Assembly (NCBI GenBank): GCA_963920765.1
Contig: OY987250.1
Span: 5,022,001-5,086,000 of the forward strand
Length of the DNA: 64,000 bases
Origin: Ulota crispa
Lineage: Eukaryota; Streptophyta; Bryopsida; Orthotrichales; Orthotrichaceae
Reading direction: 5' to 3'
Shown: one piece after another, positions 53,324 to 60,049 of the stretch
How positions within the stretch are numbered: the first letter of the stretch is position 1
Layout of the letters: each line of letters starts with the position of its first letter
Program-made: the position numbers and the translations under genes
Notes under the pieces: generated by a model
Seen by the model: only the letters and a program-made list of their open reading frames with translations
Databases searched by the model: none
Told to the model about the DNA's origin: nothing

Positions 53324-53356
53324 GGGACCATCTCTCGCTCCGAGCGTTTGAGAGTG

Positions 53357-53860
53357 GTGGTCACGGTCACAGGGGTACGTGCGGTGGTCACGGTCACAGG
53401 GGTACGTGCGGTGGTCACGGTCACAGGGGTACGTGCGGTGGTCACGGTCACAGGGGTACGTGCGGTGGTCACGGTCACAGGGGTACGTGCGGTGGTCACG
53501 GTCACAGGGGTACGTGCGGTGGTCACGGTCACAGGGGTACGTGCGGTGGTCACGGTCACAGGGGTACGTGCGGTGGTCACGGTCACAGGGGTACGTGCGG
53601 TGGTCACGGTCACAGGGGTACGTGCGGTGGTCACGGTCACAGGGGTACGTGCGGTGGTCACGGTCACAGGGGTACGTGCGGTGGTCACGGTCACAGGGGT
53701 ACGTGCGGTGGTCACGGCCACAGGGGTACGTGCGGTGGTCACGGTCACAGGGGTACGTGCGGTGGTCACGGTCACAGGGGTACGTGTGGTGGTCACGGTC
53801 ACAGGGGTACGTGTGGTGGTCACGGTCACAGGGGTACGTGTGGTGGTCATGGTCACAGGA
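53357..53860. repeat. 27-bp minisatellite, about 18.7 units
   Basis: The unit GTGGTCACGGTCACAGGGGTACGTGCG repeats with exact 27-base spacing from 53357 to 53842, with a partial unit after. Most units are identical; the last few share a C-to-T change (CGTGTGG) and one has GGCCAC. Because 27 is a multiple of three, frames stay open on both strands (a VTVTGVRAV repeat in plus), which is an artefact. A matching fragment recurs at 54312-54350. Confidence 0.95.
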
Positions 53861-58680: not shown

Positions 58681-58734
58681 AAACTCAGGCTTCCACGCAC
58701 AACAAGCCCTTCGCAGGCCAAATGTGTCCAAGGG

Positions 58735-58950
58735 ATACAAGTCATAACTAGTTTACATTTATACAAATGCAAATTACAAGACACAACACCTTGGTGCTGG
58801 TCCATTCACAAATGCTTCCAATCGACTTGCAACGTGTCCATGGGACACAAGTCGTAACTAGTTTACATTTATACAAATGCAAATTACAAGACACAACACC
58901 TTGGTGCTGGTCCATTCACAAATGCTTCCAATCGATTTGCACAAATATAT
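58735..58950 (-). repeat. 110-bp tandem duplication downstream of the 59118-60049 gene
   Basis: ACAAGTCATAACTAGTTTAC through TTCCAATCGACTTGCAA recurs with a 110-base offset and only a few substitutions. It lies 170 to 380 bases past the stop codon and may be within the 3' UTR. Confidence 0.92.
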
Positions 58951-59117: not shown

Positions 59118-60049
59118 TCAAACGACAACTTCATCCCCTACCAGGGACCAATCATCCTCCCAATTGTCGAGATCACTCTCATCCGCGTCAGAGAGCTCGA
59201 TGCCGAACCAACTGTCTGCACTCTTGGCCACTCTTGCAAGCGAACCTCTGGCTTCAATTTCACACTTAAAAACCTCAAACTCGTTCTTCAACATATCGAA
59301 GTCCAGCATGTCCACATCGGTAGTGTTGTTGTCATCGACATCCTCAAGACCTTGCTGGCTAGCATCAGCTTCTTCAGCCTTTTGACATACAGCGTCCATG
59401 GACTCTTGGATAAGGTATGTACACCCATAAGCACCACTGTCCCCATAACCGTCACCTCCGAAATCTTGAAGAATCTGTGGAAGTGAATAGATGTAATGAC
59501 AAGGATGTACAACATGTGAACATGAAATCTTAAAAGTGGTTATGGGTGCAATGGCAGTTTGCTCTTTAAAAATTCACAACGTATCCAAATAATACATTCG
59601 AAAGTGCAAACTCATTATTTTTCTGTTCCTAATAGGATCCTATAATTTGCTAGCTGTTTATTGATACTCATCATGTTCAAAACCCTTAGTTTGACGCTTT
59701 TGGGTGTACATACCTTATGCTGCAAGGCCGTATCAAGCAACAAAGAGATTGAAAGCGCCCATCCCTCAGGCTCATAACCATCGTTAGGTTCGACTTCCTC
59801 CTCATCGTCTGTGTCAAGATCCCATTTTTGCGCCATTTTGAGAGACGGTGGCTTGCTAACCCGCCAATCTGATATGAGGTGAGTGCTTGGAATGTCAGAC
59901 ACAAGCCTCTTGACCCTCCCCTTACCCTTGCCTCGTGATTTATTCAAAGGCCACGATTCGTGACATTGCTCGCAACCCACAGCTCTGCATTTCCCCGTCT
60001 TCTTGCTATGATTGCTCGGCTTGCCACCCAATTGACCTTCCCTCCTCAT
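59118..60049 (-). CDS. Acidic protein of unknown function with a MITE-derived intron and insert
   Basis: Two minus-strand exons, 60049-59714 and 59474-59118, join in phase 0 to give 230 aa. Residues 1-45 are basic with a small Cys cluster (KTGKCRAVGCEQCHESW), then SRGKGKGRVKRL, SDWRVSKPPSLKMAQKWDL, and an acidic run (TDDEEEVEPNDGYEPEGWAL). The C-terminal half is also acidic (DVDDNNTTDVDMLDFDML; IELSDADESDLDNWEDDWSL). Similar basic Cys-cluster plus acidic proteins are, I believe, found in other plants as uncharacterised proteins; I cannot name the family. The intron 59713-59475 and codons 112-133 correspond exactly to a TA-flanked MITE (59413-59715). Without it the reading would run ALQH to IQESMD uninterrupted. 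The start is the first ATG in frame. Confidence 0.8.
59413..59715 (-). mobile_element. MITE that supplies intron and coding sequence
   Basis: Read on the minus strand, the left end AGGTATGTACACCC and, from the other side, the right end AGGTATGTACACCC are inverted copies. TA borders both (59716-59717 and 59411-59412). The element aligns over its full length with 7110-7420. AG|GTATGT of the left end is the gene's 5' splice site; TTCCACAG (59482-59475) inside the element is the 3' splice site; 62 further element bases are translated. Confidence 0.88.

Follow-up and report, generated by a model that had tools for sequence, protein, structure and literature searches.

A TA-target MITE inserted in a conserved gene of Ulota crispa, with a predicted intron and 22 predicted new codons

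In a 64,000-nucleotide stretch of the Ulota crispa genome (the window, meaning the whole stretch that was analysed), a conserved bryophyte gene carries a MITE within its coding region, an insertion that is established as far as sequence allows. The most likely reading, and one that we consider probable, is that this young insertion is spliced into a 239-nt intron and contributes 22 in-frame codons. A MITE with a TA target would have jumped recently into a conserved and otherwise uninterrupted coding sequence, and the spliceosome would use a donor in the terminal repeat, AG/GTATGT (here and below a slash marks the splice junction), together with an internal acceptor, TTCCACAG. Splicing of this kind would remove 239 nt and leave 66 nt, equal to 22 new codons in frame. 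Donor, acceptor and open tail would all have been held by the family consensus before the element landed, which would make it readable with the TA at codon positions 2-3 or 3-1. Support for the insertion half of this explanation comes from the element's family, its ends, the empty site with a single TA and the relatives of the host protein that are free of the insert.

The element and its empty site in the host gene

The gene, the element and the predicted exons are laid out as follows, in window positions.

59118..60049, minus strand: host gene, from the ATG at 60049 to the TGA at 59118, 932 nt; a conserved bryophyte gene
59714..60049, minus strand: host exon 1, from the ATG to the predicted donor, 336 nt (translation and alignment with 19 relatives)
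59411..59717, minus strand: MITE with both flanking TA dinucleotides (ends, arms and family copies elsewhere in the genome)
59696..59717, minus strand: 5' terminal inverted repeat with TA, holding the predicted donor TAAG/GTATGT
59475..59713, minus strand: predicted intron, GT...AG, 239 nt, 66% A+T (splice-site scores)
59474-59118, minus strand: predicted second exon, 357 nt with the stop (translation)
59411..59474, minus strand: predicted exonised tail of the element (translation)
59411..59432, minus strand: 3' terminal inverted repeat with TA, predicted to be retained as coding sequence (...GCTTATGGGTGTACATACCTTA)
59118..59410, minus strand: remaining host coding sequence to the stop TGA (translation and the relatives' alignment)

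The MITE proper, AGG...CCT, spans 59413-59715 on the minus strand and is flanked by TA dinucleotides at 59716-59717 and 59411-59412. Its inverted arms, 59410-59432 and 59696-59718, measure 23 nt with the flanking bases included and are 96% complementary, giving the element the form of a MITE, short (303 bp) and bounded by terminal inverted repeats. The last three nucleotides of exon 1, AAG, consist of the A of the TA and the element's first AG. An earlier note on this DNA had placed the element, its inverted ends, the TA, the splice sites and the frame, and a script recovered every one of these to the base. Its claim that the gene reads without interruption once the element and one TA are taken out was borne out as well: the resulting host frame has 208 residues and no inner stop. 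Because the relatives' reading frame can be restored only with a single TA at the empty site, the second TA represents a target-site duplication.

The relatives, 19 in number, came from a protein search (one cluster is named from Physcomitrium patens, and one weak match is from Iris pallida). The earlier note had proposed intron-less orthologs without the 22 residues as a check on the insertion, and 18 of the 19 fit: the 22 inserted columns are empty in their alignment with the host protein, and in them ...TALEH is followed immediately by IQ or a slight variation of it. The nineteenth, a weak match from Iris pallida, does not align meaningfully at the insert site. Two of the 18 have entries backed by contigs of up to 66 kb (P0007, a cluster of five sequences) and 502 kb (P0008); no transcript would be that long, and in these two the genomic DNA therefore probably holds the gene as a single open frame. 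No Pfam family was found for the two host exon pieces (one match below threshold, E 0.24), and searches of Pfam with four translated pieces, of Rfam and for tRNAs returned nothing useful.

Two other repeats lie in the window. A 110-bp tandem duplication (58724-58941, 96% matches) lies immediately past the stop of the host gene, where it may belong to the 3' untranslated region, and a 27-bp minisatellite at 53356-53859 (18.7 copies, 99% matches) has open frames on both strands.

The element family in the genome

The host genome (G000, 275 Mb) was searched for family copies. Both exact 16-bp ends were present at the expected distance in 135 copies, with 0 in the reversed control; a pattern that combined ends of 13 and 11 bp with an internal TTTTGAA identified 164 sense copies (78 + 86), and the 16-bp end alone occurred at 830 places, again with 0 in each control. 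Besides the window copy, at least 39 copies were found at 90-94% identity and two more at 84% and 80%, and the element is thus present in many copies, as befits a MITE. MITEs of the Stowaway or Tc1-mariner type, which also have a TA target, resemble it in length (about 300 bp), inverted ends and copy number; its ends, AGGTATGTACACCC, are not known from Stowaway elements. None of the plasmid records searched contained a copy.

At two places, C3:32697287-32697948 and C2:954159-954868, two copies adjoin, the second being 84% and 80% identical to the window copy, respectively. Inverted pairs of the 16-bp end also occur about 410-420 bp apart (C1:7023575-7023983, C1:7029478-7029888 and C1:19058376-19058794), suggesting that a longer sister family with common ends may exist.

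Flanks were collected for 83 copies, and the 81 with recognisable ends were kept (2 were dropped). Their majority sequence is 318 nt long including both TA. Relative to this consensus, the window copy has 7 substitutions, one of them unique among the 81 copies and two common to one other copy, and one 11-nt deletion that falls inside the predicted intron. A copy so near the consensus, with few private changes, looks like a young insertion, and given its youth selection cannot vouch for function. Beyond the TA, direct repeats at the 81 copies were near the level of shuffled pairs (1 nt, 23 versus 19.1; 2 nt, 7 versus 5.9; 3 nt, 2 versus 1.5; 4 nt, 1 versus 0.5; 5-9 nt, 0).

That the intron and its 22 residues are ancestral, and were lost in the relatives, is a reading to which we attach hardly any probability. 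We found no point in its favor; the residues are missing from the 18 relatives described above, and the sequence in question is a mobile element present many times in the genome, its window copy standing near the family consensus.

The sequences on which the predicted splicing would depend are widespread in the family. AGGTATGT is kept in 79 of the 81 copies, the acceptor AG is kept in 56 and absent from 25, and the tail has an in-frame length in 46 and an out-of-frame length in 35; donor, acceptor and in-frame tail coincide in 34/81. Sorted by the codon position of the TA, readable copies number 0/81 (positions 1-2), 31/81 (2-3) and 33/81 (3-1). The 66 in-frame bases therefore belong to the family consensus, and the fit to the frame is untuned to the window gene. 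Likewise, since acceptor and tail are common yet inconstant in the family, the splice arrangement is no sign of function. The earlier note had the insert leaving exactly 22 codons; the count is right, and these family counts make it less remarkable.

Predicted splicing of the window copy

The predicted intron starts with GTATGTAC and finishes with the acceptor named above, its donor lying within the terminal repeat and its acceptor interior to the element. Scored with general plant site frequencies, not trained on this genome, the donor AAG/GTATGT reaches 6.2 and the acceptor TTCACTTCCACAG/A reaches 2.2, each the top site of its kind in the 932-nt gene. The predicted spliced product has 230 residues and no inner stop (by script). 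The arithmetic given in the earlier note is right: of the 305 added bases, 239 fall in the predicted intron and 66 would be kept, namely the tail at 59411-59474 and the AG at 59715-59714. These 66 nt make 22 codons, K plus 21 residues (K + ILQDFGGDGYGDSGAYGCTYL), and the predicted new residues sit between ...DTALQH and IQES..., with peptides that include ...TALQHK and ILQDFGGDGYGD....

Searched against a collection of 5.8 billion proteins, the exonised peptides gave seven candidates, none with E <= 10. The closest relative of the host protein in that collection is 67% identical, so Ulota crispa is probably unrepresented there. On this prediction from DNA, the locus has the make-up of a single-event transposon-made intron, with the element at the predicted intron, an empty site in relatives and the frame kept after predicted splicing. 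Of the earlier note's interpretation, the insertion half is well supported, given the family and the 18 insert-free relatives; its splicing half is plausible, the sites being the best by the general plant weights.

When the host frame is read unspliced, it meets a stop at codon 145 (by script). This would suit a recent loss-of-function allele in which the element mostly stays unspliced and the protein is truncated at that codon; a copy this young could still persist in a harmful allele, and the exonised peptides had no match at E <= 10 in the protein search above. We nevertheless judge such an allele unlikely. By the general plant weights, no donor or acceptor in the gene scores higher than this pair, and the remainder of the gene is undamaged, with an alignment to the relatives that covers its full length. 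Moreover, the genome search revealed no second intact copy of the host gene, its only results besides the two exons being a relative at 33% identity and a fragment interrupted by two stops. We continue to favor a spliced insertion that adds 22 codons.

Coding insertions elsewhere and related systems

Coding insertions of the family look rare. Three of the 81 flanked copies adjoin coding frames, most fetched copies lie outside recognisable coding sequence, and only for the window copy did homologs back the sequence to either side of the empty site; the test on the flanks was limited to open frames, base composition, translations judged by eye and eight flank frames in Pfam. Those eight frames produced one weak match below the cut-off (L071, DUF7496, 18.2 bits versus 27). 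Among the best 150 of 5,679 candidates, the longest open frame in the frame of the window copy was that of the window copy itself (151 aa), followed by a stop-free frame of 122 aa.

Several candidates were rejected. Long open frames beside other copies, at C1:4525538 (122 aa), C1:16600720 (119 aa) and C10:4966305 (141 aa, the longest among the matches listed with it), read as non-coding by eye. Three more copies border on coding frames at their joined flanks yet fall outside conserved coding sequence. At L055 the joined frame enters a NUDIX domain, but the copy is upstream of the likely start; at the middle copy of L029 the frame continues from a PPR exon, yet lies past the point where orthologs stay alike. 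In L003 an antisense copy (element 1501-1818) lies near the likely acceptor of an adjoining exon, which we take, from a motif in it, to be acid phosphatase-like.

A PPR gene is interrupted, in the same orientation, by an older copy at C10:4404477-4404793 (L029:75-391, also L088) that has 40 differences from the consensus over 317 aligned positions. In a frame-matched peptide search this copy ranked first of 150 scored (263 aa; next stop-free frame, 135). The six PPR orthologs recovered continue through this position uninterrupted, and an intact paralog on C7 (L093, L094) spans it with a single 501-aa frame, its DNA having one TA where the C10 gene holds the element. This insertion and its exact empty site on C7 present the same family interrupting coding sequence, and so support our explanation of the window gene.

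The two genes differ in their candidate acceptors. In the C10 gene the internal acceptor scores 4.0 but would break the present frame; this gene also lacks one base shortly past the insert. Two acceptors were tried, and the one at the element end alone gives an open frame: the donor AAG/GTAGGAG of the 5' repeat joined at CCTACCTTAG/ would keep the frame open through the conserved downstream part. This acceptor AG arises where the final TA of the element meets the host G that follows it, and it is outside the top eight acceptors of the stretch scanned. The predicted end-to-end splice adds one base, which the missing downstream base offsets, leaving the frame open. Further element copies lie downstream in L029, past the ortholog-like stretch, with a repeated host stretch between copies.

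Across 186 codons, the C7 and C10 genes differ at 14 synonymous and 12 amino-acid-changing codons, the latter fewer than neutral decay would lead us to expect, which suggests constraint. Of 13 listed amino-acid differences, 7 fall on C10 (one beside the frame break) and 4 on C7, with 2 unplaced. Private changes occupy 15 of 181 conserved sites in C10, including one beside the frame break that is perhaps artefactual, versus 3-11 of 170-178 in the six orthologs; the C10 copy, which exceeds the other six in private changes, may also be decaying. We set it aside as proof of a working intron, the gene being a duplicate with an intact C7 paralog and a weak in-frame acceptor. As a second coding insertion, it hints at end-to-end splicing of the element of the kind predicted.

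The C10 gene bears on the window gene in another way. That the element-end acceptor alone, of the two tried, keeps the C10 frame open lends some weight to splicing of the window copy at other sites as well, for example from the terminal-repeat donor to a host AG past the element, which would be a smaller in-frame change; by inspection, a join to ...CCAAGAG/TCC in the window gene would also hold the frame. We regard this as quite improbable. A T follows the window element, which precludes a TTAG acceptor at its end, and the host AG is outside the top eight acceptors of the gene, where TTCCACAG ranks first. The internal acceptor, with its 22 codons retained, is still the one that we prefer.

In maize Ds and in rice catalase, an intron was reportedly made by a single transposon insertion. 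The window gene is like these in that the insertion of a transposon into a gene is the source of a new intron; it differs in that the element is a bryophyte MITE, with a terminal-repeat donor, an internal acceptor and 22 codons kept, all as predicted. A 2012 review names the insertion of transposons among the origins of introns for Oryza, Zea, Drosophila and Oikopleura, with reference to maize Ds (Giroux 1994) and rice catalase (Iwamoto 1998) (PMC3443670). With its splicing as predicted, the window case would be a transposon-made intron, a kind already known. MITEs in plant exons and among splice variants, as reported for mulberry (PMC6593561), are similar in that a MITE affects the splicing of a gene.

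Introners offer a further comparison. A 2022 survey of 3,325 genomes counts 27,563 introns derived from introners, spread over 175 of them, and, among animals and land plants, places introners in two groups only, both animals (Gozashti et al. 2022; PMC9860276). According to the same survey, many introners are inverted-repeat DNA elements that are non-autonomous and bring splice sites with them, giving rise to introns, and neighbouring codons are inserted or deleted in some cases (PMC9860276). Our element shares with those described there the inverted repeats and the carriage of splice sites, here with predicted splicing (PMC9860276); unlike them, it was found in two coding insertions only, with different predicted acceptors, and its fetched copies are mostly outside recognisable coding sequence. 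Among the papers listed from the moss, bryophyte and plant literature, PMC10487979 included, no report of a land-plant introner family was found, which is no proof of absence.

We find it conceivable, if doubtful, that this bryophyte MITE family is a portable intron. It would then have given rise to introns in two genes or more, and no introner-like family would have been known from land plants before it. Its donor would be built into both terminal repeats, and its acceptor would be either the internal one, leaving 22 codons, or the element end where the target reads TAG, adding one base. Fresh intron gains in which the causal element is still recognisable are seldom caught. The locus is a young bryophyte candidate resolved to the single base; the genome holds well over 100 sister copies of the element, along with an empty site and two coding sites that are occupied. 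It offers a way to test how a DNA transposon whose ends resemble splice sites turns into an intron, and under which conditions such an element adds coding sequence as opposed to being cleanly removed. If RNA showed a working land-plant introner family, the case would exceed a single transposon-made intron.
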